DNA from: Symploca sp. SIO2E9
GTDB taxonomy: Bacteria; Cyanobacteriota; Cyanobacteriia; Cyanobacteriales; Coleofasciculaceae
Assembly: GCA_010692645.1 (NCBI GenBank)
Contig: JAAHGS010000064.1
Span: forward strand, 1-32,536
Length of the DNA: 32,536 nt
Direction of reading: 5' to 3'
Below the pieces are notes generated by a model. The model was not told the DNA's origin, made no database searches, and worked only from the letters and a program-made list of their open reading frames with translations. Each line of letters opens with the position of its first letter. Within the stretch, counting starts at the first letter, position 1. Made by a program: the position numbers and the translations under genes. Shown one piece after another: positions 2,646-9,738 of the stretch.

Positions 2646-3398
2646 ATGGTCAAGAAAATGAGTGACAATCTTAATTTTTTCTTTGTTTCGTCAATCTTAC
2701 TCAATGTCTTATTTATCGCCTTAGGAATTATCTTCATTACTAAAAAAGGCGGTATATCTTATTTAGTACGGAAGCTAGCTATTCGTGTCACTACTGATTT
2801 ACAGGGCAATTACTACTACGATGAAAAGAAAACTCACTTTGAAAGTTTACCACCGACAGATTCAGCAATAATCTTTTTGGGAGATAGTTTAACTGATGGC
2901 TGTGAATGGTCAGAATTATTTCCAGGGAAAATAATAAAAAATCGTGGTATTTCTGGGGATAGGACAGATGGGGTGTTAAACCGAATAGATGAAATAGTTA
3001 GGGCTAAACCTCGGAAAATTTTGATTATGGTGGGAATCAATGACCTGGTTCAAGGTAAGAATTTAGTAACTGTAATCAATAACTACAAGTTAATTCTGGA
3101 AAAGTTTCAATATCAACTTCCAGATACAGAGGTTGTAATTCAAAGTGTTTTGCCGATTAATAGTCCTAGAGCTTGGGAGACTAAACAAATAAAATTCAAT
3201 AATAGTAAGGTGATTGCTATGAATACTAAACTGCAAGGTTTAGCTGAAGAATTTTCTTTTGAATATATAGATTTGTTTTCGTCTTTTGTAGATGCAGATA
3301 ATCAGTTAGATCTTCGTTATACACTGGATGGTGTGCATTTGAATGGGGAAGGTTATCTGCATTGGCAGAAAAATATTGAGAAAAATGTAGTGGATTGA
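2646..3398 (+). CDS. SGNH/GDSL-family hydrolase with N-terminal membrane anchor
   Basis: A 250-residue protein of the SGNH esterase/lipase superfamily. The four blocks are visible: FLGDSLTDG (nucleophile Ser81), RGISGDRTDG (Gly104 region), VGINDLV (Asn132) and LDGVHLNGEGY (Asp228 and His231 of the triad). Residues 10-32 form one hydrophobic helix, so the enzyme is probably membrane-anchored with its catalytic domain outside the cytoplasm. The blocks resemble those of platelet-activating-factor acetylhydrolase-like and lysophospholipase-like members; the substrate cannot be told from sequence. A second in-frame ATG at 2661 is an alternative start; neither has a strong Shine-Dalgarno sequence. 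It stands alone, followed by a long repeat-filled gap. Confidence 0.85.
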   Translation: MVKKMSDNLNFFFVSSILLNVLFIALGIIFITKKGGISYLVRKLAIRVTTDLQGNYYYDEKKTHFESLPPTDSAIIFLGDSLTDGCEWSELFPGKIIKNRGISGDRTDGVLNRIDEIVRAKPRKILIMVGINDLVQGKNLVTVINNYKLILEKFQYQLPDTEVVIQSVLPINSPRAWETKQIKFNNSKVIAMNTKLQGLAEEFSFEYIDLFSSFVDADNQLDLRYTLDGVHLNGEGYLHWQKNIEKNVVD

Positions 3399-3424
3399 AA
3401 AATTCTTAGTACGCTACTCTTCCC

Positions 3425-3547
3425 GCCCAGAGTTCAAACTCTGGGCTAATAGTAAGAGTCCATTAAAATGGACTTCAATCGATGTAGAATTAGCATTTAA
3501 TCCTCTTTTAGAGGACTTAAGCTATTAGTCAGCGATTTGAATCGCTG
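3425..3547. repeat. Array of four palindromes
   Basis: Four near-perfect hairpins follow one another: GCCCAGAGTT-CA-AACTCTGGGC (3425-3446), AGTCCATT-AA-AATGGACT (3457-3474), TCCTC-TTTTA-GAGGA (3501-3515) and CAGCGATT-TG-AATCGCTG (3530-3547). CTAATAG (3446-3452) and CTATTAG (3522-3528) are also complementary and could close the middle of the array. There is no coding potential. I recall similar arrays as dispersed repeats in Nostocales genomes; whether this one is transcribed is unknown. Confidence 0.75.
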
Positions 3548-3578
3548 GCGATAGAAGTTTTGCGTAAGTCCTATAGAA

Positions 3579-3703
3579 TATACCTCTTGCAAAAGTCGAA
3601 TTGACCACCCTCAATCCTCCCGATGCGGGGGGAAGGAAGCTTGCTACCTCTACCTGTAGGGGAGGGTTGGGGAGTGGTTTTAAGGATTTATGCAAGAGGT
3701 ATA
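3579..3703. mobile_element. MITE-like 125-bp hairpin element
   Basis: Perfect 13-bp inverted ends TATACCTCTTGCA (3579-3591) and TGCAAGAGGTATA (3691-3703) enclose a second inverted pair: ACCACCCTCAATCCTCCC against GGGAGGGTTGGGGAGTGGT. Nearly the whole element can therefore fold on itself. The terminal TA may be the duplicated target, as for IS630/Tc1-mariner-related MITEs; that assignment is inference. The short ORFs crossing it are not credible genes. Confidence 0.7.
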
Positions 3704-3924
3704 ATGAATTTTTTTTTACTTCTATCGATAGAAATACCATTAGCATATCTTATGCTACAATGATAGTTTTTGATTTTTTTAAAATGCTTGGCTGTATTCA
3801 GAAATATGAAATTTATTTTCCGTGCATAAGTCCTATTGCAGGTAAATATTATTCTCTCAAAAAGCTTTTTTACCTAACCTAAATTAGGAGAACTTATAAT
3901 TTGATTATGAATATAATGAGGGGT

Positions 3925-4219
3925 GGTATTTAAATGAAATACCAGCCAGCGCTTGGGTAGGCACACCTAAGCACTGGAGCAAACTGAGTAAACCAGGAGC
4001 AATTACAGTGGTGCAAAGACGCCTTGCTATGTTTGCTATGTTGAGGGTGGCTATTTCCATAATCAACATTGTCGTAGGCTTCCATGACTACGAGGAGCCT
4101 TTCAGGCTCACCTCTTGTCTCTTAGCTGGCCTAGACAGTTTGATTCTTGCCTTCTCAATCCCACATAGCAAGTAGCCGTAAACAGGCTACTTTCGAGGGC
4201 TGGGTAACATGAACTCAGT
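3925..4219 (+). ncRNA. Candidate structured non-coding RNA (unidentified)
   Basis: A nested set of stems covers a stretch with no plausible gene. Stems are 3925-3931 with 3937-3943 (GGTATTT/AAATACC); 3946-3958 with 3965-3977, 13 bp with one C-A mismatch and one G-U pair; and 3983-3989 with 4213-4219 (ACTGAGT/ACTCAGT), which closes the domain. Inside it are 4023-4032 with 4163-4172 (CTTGCTATGT/ACATAGCAAG), 4072-4077 with 4088-4093, 4095-4099 with 4105-4109 (GAGCC/GGCTC), and 4171-4177 with 4185-4191 (AGTAGCC/GGCTACT). The strand is assumed from the downstream gene. It is not recognised as RNase P, tmRNA or 6S. A remnant of a mobile RNA (HEARO/IscB-type or intron fragment) is a possibility that was not verified. 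Confidence 0.45.
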
Positions 4220-4274
4220 CCTAACATTTTTACTCAGTAACTATATATTCACATGACCTTGACTAAATTCGGGA

Positions 4275-4330
4275 CAGTTTATGACTGACTTACAACTGAC
4301 TTACAACTGATTTGTTCCTGATTTAAACTG
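4275..4330. promoter_or_regulatory. Direct and inverted repeats upstream of the HTH-ATPase gene
   Basis: TGACTTACAAC occurs twice in tandem (4286-4296 and 4297-4307) and is flanked by CAGTTTA (4275-4281) and its complement TAAACTG (4324-4330). The block lies just upstream of a gene that encodes an N-terminal HTH, so it could be a regulator site or an autoregulatory operator. This is inference from position only. Confidence 0.35.
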
Positions 4331-4372
4331 GGCAGTAGCGATATGATAGATTTAGATTGCTTAGGATTAAAT

Positions 4373-5665
4373 ATGCCGCGATCGCTCAGGGTTAGCACAG
4401 ATTACATTGGAATCGTCAAATTAGCAGTTCGACGTAACGGTTATTTGCGACAAAAAGACTTAGCTGAAGACTTAGGGCTTGCTCTGGCTACCGTCAGTAA
4501 CTTCCTCAATGGCAAACCAGTTGATGTCCTCAACTTTCAGGAAATCTGCCGGGTATTAGGACAGGACTGGCAAGAAATTGCCTCTCTTGAAGAGAATAGT
4601 AGTAGTAGTCTATCTAGCTCTAAAGACTTTGAGTCTCAAATAGTCATTACTGAACCCCGTCACGATGAGGAAGAAGCTTTTATTTATGTAGAAAGACCTC
4701 CCATCGAATCTCTCTGTTATGAAACCTTGTTGCAGCCCGGTTCCTTAATTCGGATTAAAGCACCTAGCTTGATGGGTAAAACTTTACTAATTTCTAAAGT
4801 TTTGGCTAAATTAACAGCACAAAAATTTAGAAAGGTTTATTTAAATTTTCATCTGGCAGAGGAAAAAGATTTCACTAATCTAGATAAATTTCTGAAGTGG
4901 TTTTGTGTAAGTATTAGCCAAAGTTTAGAGTTAGAAAATAAACTAACTGATTACTGGGATGGAGAATTTTCTACCAGCAAAGTAAATTGCACAATCTACT
5001 TTGAAAAGTACCTGTTAGCTGAAAATAACAAACCACTAGTTTTATGCTTGGATGAAGTTGAGCGAGTGTTTGATAAACCTGAAGTTGTTAGCGACTTTCT
5101 TGGACTCTTAAGAGCTTGGCATGAACAAGGAAGAGTTCGCCCTATCTGGAAAAGGCTGCGCTTGGTAGTTGCTCACTCGACGGAAGTTTATATACCACTC
5201 AATATTAATGAGTCGCCGTTTAATGTAGGGGTGTTAATCGAATTACCGGAGTTTACACTAGAACAGGTAAGAGATTTAGCACAACTTCATGATCTAGATT
5301 GGACAGATGCCCAGGTAAAACAGCTGATGGAGATGGTGGGGGGGCATCCTCATTTAGTCGAACGAGCTTTCTCTCACCTCAAAGTTCATAAGAACATTTC
5401 CCTCGAACAACTCTTGCAGACAGCAGCAACAGAAGAGGGTATTTATAGCAGTCATCTGCGGCGACTTTGGCGCGTTATTGAGCAGCAAACAGAATTGCTA
5501 GAAGCCCTCAAGAAGGTTGTTACTACTGACACTTTAGTATCACTACAACCAATGGTGGCATATAAATTACATAGTATGGGATTAGTAGATTTGAAAGGAA
5601 ATAATGTAATTACTCGCTGCAATTTGTATCGCCAGTATTTTAAGAATCGCATCGAGGCAGTATGA
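4373..5665 (+). CDS. HTH plus AAA-like (AAA_35) ATPase
   Basis: A protein of about 430 residues with an N-terminal XRE-like helix-turn-helix (residues ~10-60, RQKDLAEDLGLALATVSNFLNG) and an AAA_35-type P-loop ATPase domain. Walker A is the family variant APSLMGKT (K136), Walker B is LVLCLDEVE (D227, E228), and the downstream SPFNVG motif is typical of this cyanobacterial group. The start chosen is the ATG at 4373 (MPRSLRV), the usual beginning of such proteins as I recall them; an upstream ATG at 4343 would add 10 residues. Its function is unknown. STAND-like regulation or a conflict-system role is often assumed for these ATPases. It is followed, 260 bp later on the same strand, by a second AAA_35 protein with sensor domains, which suggests a functional pair. 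Confidence 0.85.
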   Translation: MPRSLRVSTDYIGIVKLAVRRNGYLRQKDLAEDLGLALATVSNFLNGKPVDVLNFQEICRVLGQDWQEIASLEENSSSSLSSSKDFESQIVITEPRHDEEEAFIYVERPPIESLCYETLLQPGSLIRIKAPSLMGKTLLISKVLAKLTAQKFRKVYLNFHLAEEKDFTNLDKFLKWFCVSISQSLELENKLTDYWDGEFSTSKVNCTIYFEKYLLAENNKPLVLCLDEVERVFDKPEVVSDFLGLLRAWHEQGRVRPIWKRLRLVVAHSTEVYIPLNINESPFNVGVLIELPEFTLEQVRDLAQLHDLDWTDAQVKQLMEMVGGHPHLVERAFSHLKVHKNISLEQLLQTAATEEGIYSSHLRRLWRVIEQQTELLEALKKVVTTDTLVSLQPMVAYKLHSMGLVDLKGNNVITRCNLYRQYFKNRIEAV

Positions 5666-5832: not shown

Positions 5833-5925
5833 AGATAGTGGAGAGGTTAGTATTTTATTTTAAGTTTTACCTACCTATTTAGAACTGAATCTTTGACTTT
5901 AAAGTTTCTACTTTCATCCACATCC

Positions 5926-8900
5926 ATGAACAGAGTAAAAAGTCCAGTCTTCAAATATCAAGTTGGAGGCAGTCTTCCAGCTAACGCCCCTACCTATGTC
6001 AAACGACAGGCAGACGAAGAACTATATAAGGCCCTCAAGGCTGGAGAATTTTGCTACGTCTTAAACTCCCGGCAGACGGGCAAGTCTAGCTTGCGGGTAA
6101 GAACAATGCAAAGACTGGAAGCTGAAGGCTTCGCTTGTGCTGCTATTGATCTTACGATGATTGGCACTAAACAAGTTACCCCACAGCAATGGTATGGAAG
6201 TCTAATTAGACATCTTTCCAATAGTTTTGAGCTATCAGAAAACTTTAATTGCTTGAGTTGGTTGCAGGAACGAGAGATGCTGTCACCACTACAGTTTTTC
6301 AGTGAATTTATCGAGCAAGTACTGCTGGTAGATGTTACTCAAAATATTGTCATTTTTATAGACGAGATTGATAGTGTTCTCAACTTAAATTTCCTAGCTG
6401 ACGATTTTTTTGCCTTGATTAGAGCTTGCTATAACCAGCGCGCCGATAAGCCAGAACACCAACGCCTCTCCTTTGTGCTACTGGGAGTAGCTACCCCCTC
6501 TGATTTGATTCAAAATAAAAACCAGACTCCGTTTAATATTGGTAAAGCAATTACCCTCAATGGTTTTGACTACGATGAAGCCCAACCATTAATTAATGGA
6601 TTAGTGCGCCGAGCCAGTAATCCTCAAACCGTACTGAAAGAAGTTTTGAAATGGACGGGAGGTCAACCATTTCTCACCCAAAAGCTTTGTCAACTTATTC
6701 GCAAAAGAAAATCTCAGATACCAGCAGGAAGTGAGAGTATACAGGTTAGTACATTAGTAAGAGTCTACTTTATTGAATCTTGGGAAGTAAGAGATCAACC
6801 GGAGCATTTGAAAACTATACGCGATCGCATCCTGAGAAACAAGCAACGTGCTGGGCGACTACTGGGACTATATCAGCAAATTCTACAACGGCAAGAAATT
6901 GTCGCTGATCACACTCCAGAACAGATAGAATTGCAATTGTCAGGGTTAGTGGTTAAACAGAGTGGAAAACAGCATGATCAGCCTGTATTGAGAGCTTATA
7001 ACCTCATTTATCAGTCTGTTTTTGACCACAATTGGGTTGATCAAGCTTTAGCAAATTTACGACCCTATGCTACGGAGATAGAAGCTTGGTTAGCTTATCA
7101 TCGTCAGGATAACTCTCAGCTTTTGAAGGGAGATAGATTGCAAGATGCACTGAATTGGGCTTTGAATAAAAGCTTAAGCAATGATGATTATAAGTTCTTG
7201 ACTGCTAGCCAAAGTTTGGAAAAACGAAAGGTTCAAAAAGCCTTAGAGGAAGTTAAAAAACATTCAGAGGCACGGAGGCAGGGAAAACATAATCCCGTTC
7301 TCGGTAATAATGAGGGTAACTTCTATGACTTTCTTGAGCAACTTACCCCGGAAAGTTTTAAATATGTCGTCTCTAACATTGAACTAGACTTCGGAGTTGT
7401 TAATCAAACCCTATCGATGATGGACAACTTTGTAGAAATCAAAGGGTTTAATGAAGTTCTTGATGAAATGTTGCATTCTATCACTTTGAAGACAGGGGAA
7501 GTTCTGAATGCTGATCGCACAACCATTTTTTTATTAGATCAAGAAAAGAATGAACTATGGTCAAAAGTTGCAAAAGCTGAAGGCAGTGGCATGGTAGAGA
7601 TTCGGATTTCCATAGATGAGACAATTGCTGGAGAAGCAGCCACAACCAAGAAACTAGTTAATATTCCCTGGGATTTCTATGATGATCCTCGCTCTAGTAT
7701 AGCCAGGGAAATTGATAAAAGAACTTTATATCGCACCTACAGTCTATTAGCTCTACCACTATTGGATGAAGAGGGAGATTTAGTAGGCGTTATCCAATTA
7801 CTCAACAAGTTAAAAATATCCCACTCTCAAGAAGCTACCTTAGCTGAAAAAATTGATCTAGATAAAAGAATTGATCGCAATGGCTTTACATCAGAAGATG
7901 AAAGATTGCTCACTGAATTTGCCCGTTCGATTCAACTGATTCTCAAGTCATCCAAGATGTTTTATAAGGCAGCTCAAAAGCAAAGGGAGATTTCAGCACT
8001 GATGAATGCTACTCAATCCCTCGGTAGGAGCAGCTTGGATCTCAATGAAACCCTCAAGAAGGTTATGGATGAGGCTAAGAAGCTAATCAATGCAGATATT
8101 GGTACTGTTTGGCTGCTAGACTCTGAGCACAATCAGCTATATGCAAGATTCTCCACCGCTGATGGTACTTTCCAAGAAAAACGCATGTCCCAAGGAGAAG
8201 GCTTCGCCGGTGAAGTTGCGACAACACTTCAGCCGCTAATAATTCCATTTGATTTGTATGATCATCCCAATTCAGAGACTGCAAAGCAAATGGATCAGGA
8301 AACTGGTTATCGCAGTTGTAGTTTGTTATGTATGCCCGTATTTGATGCTGATGGTGAGTTGATTGGCGTGACTCAATTACTAAACAAGAAGAAACAAGGT
8401 GATTTCCCAGCCTATGATCCTAGGGATTGGCCAACAGCACCTGAGTGTTGGAGAGAAAGTTTTGATCATAAAGATCAAAAGTTGATGGAGGCATTTAATA
8501 TTCAAGCTGGTGTTGCGATCCAAAACGCCAAGCGTTTTGATACAGTCAAACGGGAAGTGCAAAAACAACGAGAGCTTTTTTGCAGCGCTCCTCAGGGATT
8601 AATCTTCACTAGACATTTTAATAGAGTCAAGCAGCAAATGCAAAAACAACGAGAGCTTTTTTGCAGCGCTCCTCAGGGATTAATCTTCACTGATAGAACA
8701 GGTAAAATTACCCTAGCGAATGAATTGGCAAAGTCGTTACTTGGTCAGTGGGATATAGAGTATAAGTCTTTGCGTGAGTTGGTTTTGGTTAAAGATGGTA
8801 ACTTTGACCAGTGGTTTGATGCAGCTTTGGCAGCTAAGGATGAAGCAGAACATGAGCAATTCTATCCAGCTCAAATTATACTGTCCCTTACAACTGGAAC

Positions 8901-9012
8901 AGAACACAGTGTCGATTTAACTATTTTCTCGCTTCTTAATGCGAACGACACTAATGAACTCTGCGCGATCCTGGTAATCATTAATGAAATTAGTGCAGAA
9001 GCCCAACACTGA
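5926..9012 (+). CDS. AAA-like (AAA_35) ATPase with two GAF domains and a PAS domain
   Basis: A protein of about 1028 residues. The N-terminal AAA_35 ATPase has Walker [10 protein letters not shown] (K53), Walker B VIFIDEID (D146, E147) and the TPFNIG motif. GAF domain 1 spans about 506-672 and GAF domain 2 about 704-866; both have [22 protein letters not shown]-like strands and an NK near the end, resembling the GAF domains of cyanobacterial CyaB-type cyclases. A PAS-like domain follows at about 911-1015. No histidine kinase, cyclase, GGDEF or protease domain follows, so output would have to be through the ATPase or a partner. Residues encoded by 8560-8691 contain a tandem duplication of 27 residues ([16 protein letters not shown] twice). 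The ATG at 5926 is preferred over a TTG at 5893. Role: probable signal-responsive regulator, unproven. Confidence 0.85.
8560..8691 (+). repeat. In-frame 81-nt tandem duplication within the sensor ATPase
   Basis: A 51-nt block starting CAAAAACAACGAGAG is identical at 8560-8610 and 8641-8691, an offset of 81 nt (27 codons). The flanking parts of the unit ([10 protein letters not shown] and [10 protein letters not shown]) are diverged but alignable. The duplication lengthens the linker between GAF 2 and the PAS domain. Confidence 0.9.
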
Positions 9013-9098: not shown

Positions 9099-9383
9099 TT
9101 AAACAAGTTCTATTCGCAATTCACGTCCTATAACAGATGCAGCCCTTTGCATGGTTTCCAGGGAAACACCCGTTTGTTCTGGATCAAGCAATCTGTTCAG
9201 TTGAGAACGGCTTGTGTACATGCGTTCTGCCATAGCTTTTTTCGTTATATTTTGTTTTTTCATTTCATTTTCAATCTGCCATGCCAATACCCTTTTGATA
9301 GCAACAGCAGTGCATTCCTCGTGGATGCCTTCCTCTTTTAGGAAATCATCAAATGAAGAACCTTCATTGGGATGTTTTGTCAT
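9099..9383 (-). CDS. XRE-family antitoxin (HigA-like)
   Basis: A 94-residue helix-turn-helix protein of the type found as the second gene of HigBA modules. The HTH is around QNITKKAMAERMYTSRSQLNRLLDPEQTGVSLETMQRAA. The start at 9383 is chosen because AAGGAG lies 10 nt before it; the in-frame ATG at 9392 is only 1 nt from that site. The gene overlaps the 3' end of the toxin gene, the usual toxin-first HigBA order, so translation is probably coupled. The antitoxin would bind the RelE/HigB-type toxin and repress the module. It appears intact even though the toxin start looks damaged. Confidence 0.85.
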   Translation of the reverse strand: MTKHPNEGSSFDDFLKEEGIHEECTAVAIKRVLAWQIENEMKKQNITKKAMAERMYTSRSQLNRLLDPEQTGVSLETMQRAASVIGRELRIELV

Positions 9384-9738
9384 TGTTCTCATACTCCTTC
9401 TTTCGTTTCATTGCTAAATCCAAATCGCTCTCGGGTATTTTCTGGGTTTTCTTGACAAACCCATGAAGCAATACCATCTTGCCGTTGTGCGTAAAAAACA
9501 GCACCCTTGCTATTCTGCCTCGGGTAAGTTTGCTGCGGACTTCCCATAAATCCTTACGACCTGTTATAGAGCGGCATATTGGCATTCCTACAGGCCAACC
9601 GAATTCGACAGTTTTAATGTCTTTGCCGATAATAGCGCGATCCTCTTTATCCAGTTCTTTCAACCACTCTCTAACAGGTTCGCTGCCAGAAGCAGTACGA
9701 AAGAAGATGCCAGGTAGAACTTTCAGCGACTTAAACCA
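9364..9738 (-). CDS. RelE/HigB-type toxin (Gp49-like), start codon apparently frameshifted
   Basis: The frame encodes a Gp49-like (PF05973) type II toxin, a family of mRNA interferases acting on the ribosome: FFRTASGSEPVREWLKEL, then EDRAIIGKDIKTVEFGWPVGMP, then LWEVRSKLTRGRIARVLFF and a helical tail. Codons continue in frame back to about 9738 (WFKSLKVLPG), but contain no ATG or GTG start. The natural ATG (9737-9739) is one base out of frame and meets TAA after one codon (ATG GTT TAA). Removing one T would give MVKSLKVLPG, a normal beginning. The only in-frame alternative is a TTG at 9661-9663, which would lose the first strand and helix. Either the toxin is inactivated, it uses an unusual start, or the base is an assembly error. 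Confidence 0.7.
   Translation of the reverse strand, partial: WFKSLKVLPGIFFRTASGSEPVREWLKELDKEDRAIIGKDIKTVEFGWPVGMPICRSITGRKDLWEVRSKLTRGRIARVLFFTHNGKMVLLHGFVKKTQKIPESDLDLAMKRKKEYENNDKTSQ

Follow-up and report, generated by a model that had tools for sequence, protein, structure and literature searches.

We consider it likely that a free-standing gene within positions 3925 to 4219 of a contig from Symploca sp. SIO2E9 (JAAHGS010000064.1) encodes a small membrane protein; sequence comparison has so far placed this gene in a single genus. The stretch analyzed, here called the window, comprises 32,536 nt of this 7.7-Mb genome, and the region under study lies between a GDSL-lipase gene (2646 to 3398) and a gene that joins HTH and AAA_35 domains (4343 to 5665; the HTH-AAA_35 gene). 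A sequence-only reading had described the region as a candidate structured RNA in a stretch with no plausible gene. The second part of that description does not hold: an open frame at 4008 to 4175 carries a Shine-Dalgarno (SD)-like site and a GTG start, and frame, start, and stop are kept in the closest relative locus, from Symploca sp. SIO3C6 of the same genus (JAAHHJ010000001.1), which is 67% identical to the region at the DNA level. The order GDSL lipase, small gene, HTH-AAA_35 gene is common to both genomes, with one extra gene in SIO3C6. That gene (684 to 1364 of locus L002, opposite strand, 226 amino acids), which looks like one for a pyridoxamine-phosphate oxidase, separates the GDSL lipase from the small gene in SIO3C6, and the window lacks it at this position. 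Rows L002, L006, L068, L099, L107, L136, and L138 of our searches are one SIO3C6 copy and were counted once (the small open reading frame [ORF] is identical in L002 and L006); rows L001, L067, L069, L106, and L137 are the window itself.

The small ORF (4008 to 4175, plus strand) encodes 55 amino acids from a GTG codon, with an alternative GTG at 4011, and ends with TAG at 4173 to 4175; the SD-like AGGAG (3995 to 3999, plus strand) stands 8 nt ahead of the first GTG. In SIO3C6, the sequence GGAGGAG, an 8-nt spacer, ATG, 56 codons, and TAG all fall in columns matching the window frame, the sole indel within the frame is of 3 nt, and the two proteins are 53% identical. Substitutions by codon position number 16/14/26, a bias that alone is not significant (chi-square estimate, p ~0.1). 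By the NG86 method, dS is 0.76 and dN 0.38 over the whole frame (dN/dS of ~0.5), and over codons 6 to 53 the values are 0.86 and 0.33 (dN/dS of 0.39). When the same changes were placed at random, the protein score was equaled or exceeded in 143 of 20,000 trials, 92 of them without an inner stop. As the frame was chosen after all six had been viewed, the corresponding P of ~0.005 becomes ~0.03, with the shared start, ribosome site, and stop left out of the count. The remaining five frames contain two to six stops in SIO3C6 over the ORF stretch. Homologues encoding a protein across the region had been named as the observation that would speak against an RNA, and this is largely what the SIO3C6 locus provides, with its frame kept and its substitutions conservative. 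The coding evidence comes from just two distinct sequences, which together make it likely, short of proof, that the region codes for protein.

Codon usage in the frame is not gene-like, with gene-over-background log-odds of −3.2 in the window and −9.1 in SIO3C6. The ORF is the best of the six frames by this measure in the window, and in SIO3C6 a minus-strand frame is slightly better (−8.2); the corresponding fractions against shuffles are 0.12 and 0.55. Short hydrophobic frames are difficult to assess in this way, and the feature was not treated as defining. It is nevertheless one of the observations that would fit a purely noncoding structured RNA, an orphan small RNA in which the open frame is fortuitous; such an RNA would also account for folding that is both strong and conserved and for a product without a protein family. 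Conservation of the start, SD site, stop, and frame, together with the 3-nt indel and the conservative protein substitutions, argues against this explanation, which we regard as improbable.

The frame is flanked by elements that would suit a short transcript. Upstream, a −10-like TATAAT (3912 to 3917, plus strand) has TAGAAT at the aligned place in SIO3C6, and from this putative promoter a transcript would start near 3924. A sigma-70 scan of 3398 to 4400 did not list this TATAAT; it returned two sites elsewhere, at chance level (shuffle mean, 2.7). In the 5′ untranslated region, a hairpin (CCAGCGCTTGGG...CCTAAGCACTGG; 3946 to 3977, plus strand) is conserved in SIO3C6, with 11 pairs common to both sequences, of which one is changed on both sides (C-G to U-A) and one is G-U in one sequence and A-U in the other. 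The palindrome pattern of this hairpin stands at a single place in each of the two genomes, and so it is not a dispersed repeat. An earlier hairpin proposed at 3925 to 3943 is without a counterpart in the SIO3C6 homologue. Over the stop codon, a stem formed by AAGTAGCC and GGCTACTT (4170 to 4192, plus strand) is matched in SIO3C6 by a hairpin built partly from other bases. It is followed by a terminator-like stem-loop of 10 pairs and then AACATTTTT (4196 to 4231, plus strand), whose stem is kept and longer in SIO3C6. A terminator scan of 3398 to 4400 gave 2 such sites (1.0 ± 1.2 in shuffles); the scan of SIO3C6, where fewer T's trail the stem, called no site. We read the stem-loop with its T-rich tail, the −10-like box, and the 5′ hairpin as a putative free-standing transcription unit. 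The earlier suggestion of a stand-alone RNA stands to the extent that a free-standing transcript with conserved stems is plausible (TATAAT, hairpin, and terminator-like stem), but this transcript would most likely be a small mRNA rather than a noncoding one.

The same arrangement bears on a second earlier suggestion, that the region serves the HTH-AAA_35 gene, which begins at 4343 or 4373, as a 5′ regulatory leader. The region is on the same strand and directly upstream of that gene, and the order is kept in SIO3C6. However, the terminator-like stem at 4196 to 4231 stands between the two, and the HTH-AAA_35 gene is preceded by phased repeats and a −10-like TATGAT (4342) of its own, which makes a leader role unlikely. 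In addition, a profile scan of 94 AAA_35 loci (L003 to L066 and L106 to L135) found the small gene with a significant E value only in the two known genomes, the next best locus being L050 (E = 0.022). Taken together, we give a leader role almost no credence.

The repeats ahead of the HTH-AAA_35 gene consist of four TGAYTT units at 11-nt spacing (CTGACTTACAA...; 4286 to 4324), which end 17 nt before the −10-like TATGAT (4342 to 4347). Similar phased units precede the HTH-AAA_35 gene in L002, L003, L004, L005, L112, L114, and L127. At least one phased TGAYTT pair was present in 8 of 9 sets, the window included, with at most 3 of 1,000 shuffles as good, and there was none in L128; both the sets and the motif had been picked by eye in advance, and L112 is nearly identical to L127. 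The repeats are perhaps an operator for the HTH-AAA_35 protein's own HTH domain. The listed start of this gene, ATG 4343, overlaps the −10-like box and is probably too early; the HTH-AAA_35 proteins of L002 and L005 start with MPRSL, which corresponds to ATG 4373 in the window and suggests that the true start is there. The protein matches the PADLOC model PDC-S27, a candidate defense protein (6.5e−07), and its titled relatives are nearly all cyanobacterial (1 of 64 loci is titled Rhodothermaceae). A second AAA_35 gene (5893 to 9012) joins AAA_35 to GAF and PAS domains. The two proteins are members of a large paralogous family, with 1 to 24 matches per genome (E ≤ 1e−60) in all 19 genomes searched from the taxonomic family and 14 in the window's own genome. 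Further along, at 9099 to 9663 on the minus strand, two adjacent small genes with Gp49-like (DUF891) and HTH domains presumably form a type II toxin-antitoxin pair. On the other side of the region, a MITE-like element of ~125 nt with 19-nt terminal inverted repeats occupies 3579 to 3703, and the stretch from 3570 to 3710 has 24 matches in its own genome, self and partial matches included.

The stems reported between 3925 and 4219 exist on the plus strand and exceed chance. The plus strand of 3925 to 4230 folds at −108.8 kcal/mol (−84.4 ± 5.1 in 100 dinucleotide shuffles; z = −4.75), and the minus strand of the same stretch has a z of −2.73. With 200 shuffles each, z values were −4.15 for the leader (3923 to 4007), −3.18 for the coding part (4008 to 4175), and −5.29 for the 3′ part (4168 to 4235). 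The SIO3C6 homologue also folds better than its shuffles (z = −5.3, over a longer stretch), and its fold is likewise spread across the leader, middle, and 3′ end. A two-sequence consensus fold of the whole gave a z of −8.6, with none of 100 column shuffles as good; the leader (z = −8.0) and the 3′ part (z = −10.5) were each matched by 0 of 300 column shuffles, and the middle, which holds the frame, reached −2.5 (5 of 300). An enclosing pair claimed between 3983 to 3989 and 4213 to 4219 fared less well. Its strands are complementary in the window, but four of the seven pairs break in SIO3C6, and it competes with the terminator-like stem at 4196 to 4222, which is used by both the minimum-energy and the consensus folds. 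Covariation, for which an alignment of homologues had been proposed, was found in part: both sides are changed in 6 of 59 consensus pairs (1 in the leader, 3 in the frame, and 2 in the stem over the stop codon), but this signal is thin within the frame.

Folding of the frame itself is the evidence for a dual-function RNA, one that is translated into the small protein and, through its folded body, has a second activity as RNA. An example would be a message that stays closed because the opening part of the frame pairs with the end of the frame, as happens in type I toxin messages. In both species, the coding part is more stably folded than its synonymous-codon permutations (native energy reached by 1 of 500 in the window and 0 of 500 in SIO3C6), and 3 of 300 codon-pair permutations attained the frame consensus fold. 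Of 128 segments of the same size taken from 19 window genes, one had a z of −2.99 or below and the lowest stood at −3.11, above the −3.2 of the small ORF. In both sequences, UUGCUA, which lies 26 nt into the frame, is paired with a UAGCAA that closely precedes the stop. Partial pairing also involves the ribosome site and start in both, with an unpaired probability below 0.5 in the predicted folds for 3 of 5 SD bases in the window and 6 of 7 in SIO3C6; in the fold predicted for the window, most of the region around the start codon is paired. Against a dual function, the covariation amounts to three frame pairs changed on both sides, and a promoter scan found no minus-strand promoter-like site in 3398 to 4400; SIO3C6 has one weak site of this kind inside the frame, which is within chance (1.8 expected). 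We hold a second, RNA-level function to be unlikely, if well worth keeping in view. A more specific form of this explanation is a genus-restricted dual-function message that encodes a two-helix membrane microprotein and has a selected long-range fold partly covering the ribosome site, either as an orphan toxin-like unit or as an RNA-regulated one of filamentous cyanobacteria; to this we assign a comparably small chance. With a small mRNA as the preferred explanation, the extra folding of the frame is the one unusual feature left; possible reasons for it are stability of the message, control of its translation, or an additional role of the RNA.

The Rfam check that had been proposed was run, and the statement that the RNA belongs to no recognized family was borne out, with no family at the gathering threshold in the whole window. 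The region resembles Rfam structured RNA families in having conserved stems and some compensatory changes but differs from them in this lack of a family at threshold and in holding a conserved frame. Apart from its stems, nothing favors the suspicion that the region is left over from a mobile RNA (HEARO/IscB-type or group II intron). Rfam gave three matches in 3400 to 4400 at E values up to 10, none of which lies in the region or belongs to those families, and the region is present as a single copy in its own genome at E ≤ 0.001. Of the 39 listed ORFs, Pfam covered seven, which all lie on the side of the window adjoining the region, and it found no HEARO-associated IscB-TnpB nuclease gene among them; the others were read by eye, and none was recognized as such a gene. 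In SIO3C6, the only intron match (plastid clpP, 14.7 bits against a cutoff of 140) is upstream of the region. We consider a mobile RNA origin exceedingly improbable. One weak window match, Acido-Lenti-1 (22 bits against a cutoff of 37), lies outside the region at 3426 to 3453. The SIO3C6 scan gave six matches up to an E value of 10, all far under their cutoffs; three of these overlap the counterpart of the region and were treated as chance matches (CRISPR-DR21, 18.9 bits against 48; MIR408, 16.9 against 64; and mir-485, 13.9 against 70).

The distribution of the small gene is narrow. The DNA search found the region in 2 of 57 genomes, and the protein search found the small protein in 2 of 97, both of one genus; in the family sample, copies were present in 2 of 20 genomes and absent from the other 18. 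Seven of the 388 genomes in the order sample had matches at E ≤ 0.01; the five weak ones among them are roughly as many as chance would give, and four of these five genomes have a match that contains a stop. Across the phylum, a two-row profile matched 37 of 386 genomes at E ≤ 0.1, with ~39 expected by chance. From their scores and the alignments viewed, we judged the phylum matches beyond the window's own genome to be chance; SIO3C6 is not among the matches listed. Searches of viral contigs, plasmids, and phages found no copy of the small gene. A possible decayed piece, GLVILRMIFSFVYIAAAMH followed by a stop, was seen in L005 (Symploca sp. SIO2E6; E = 1.4) and was not counted as a homologue. 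No ATG, GTG, or TTG lies ahead of its matching stretch. The piece scored 40 against SIO3C6 (9 of 1,000 shuffles as good) and 29 against the window copy (254 of 1,000); for comparison, ten other loci scored at most 32 against SIO3C6 over the 600 nt that precede the match. A three-way DNA alignment with L005 was unusable over the small gene.

In the small protein, a charged turn connects two hydrophobic stretches, and the core FRLTSC-LA-LDSLILA-SI is conserved between the window and SIO3C6. AlphaFold, using a two-row alignment, placed helices at residues 2 to 26 and 31 to 50 (mean pLDDT, 73; pTM, 0.49). The model suggests that the protein is probably a helical hairpin, which would be inserted in the membrane. 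Searches of Pfam, NCBIfam, PADLOC, and PDB gave no match, and PHROGs gave two weak ones (E = 0.15, to a holin family, and E = 0.2). The toxins of type I toxin-antitoxin systems are small hydrophobic proteins with structured messages and usually have one helix. The small gene is similar to them in its small hydrophobic product, strongly folded mRNA, and long-range pairing within the message, whereas its product has two predicted helices and the promoter scan found no antisense promoter beside it, apart from the chance-level SIO3C6 site.

A likeness in kind, with no sequence relation claimed, is to the Synechocystis small-protein genes hliR1, nsiR6, norf1, and norf4, which are described as short transcripts with frames of fewer than 80 codons, supported by transcript and FLAG-tag evidence (PMC5126843). 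According to the same account, NsiR6 and HliR1 were initially taken to be noncoding, and both proved later to code for small proteins; a transmembrane region is predicted for HliR1, and a possible dual function is discussed for norf4, a proposed cyanobacterial precedent for such an RNA (PMC5126843). The small gene shares with these a frame of at most 80 codons with a start and a ribosome site (55 codons, GTG, and AGGAG at 8 nt). It looks like a gene of the NsiR6/HliR1 kind, although, unlike the Synechocystis genes, it is known here from the sequences of two species of one genus.

If the small gene is expressed as its layout suggests, a promoter near 3912 would yield an mRNA of ~310 nt carrying, in order, a stable 5′ hairpin, the ribosome site, the 55-codon frame, and a stem-loop terminator ahead of the next gene. 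The 5′ hairpin itself would leave the ribosome site uncovered, and the ribosome site and start codon would be partly paired with other stretches, as in both predicted folds, so that the message may be 5′ protected, with translation proceeding at a modest and tunable rate. By analogy with other small membrane proteins of cyanobacteria, the small protein would most likely modify or stabilize a larger membrane complex.

These results illustrate how a small unannotated gene can resemble an orphan structured RNA by virtue of its 5′ hairpin, terminator-like stem, and folded frame. They also bring to light a candidate small membrane protein for which the family libraries searched gave no significant match. 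Should the extra folding of the frame prove real, the gene would further argue for control of a microprotein at the RNA level.
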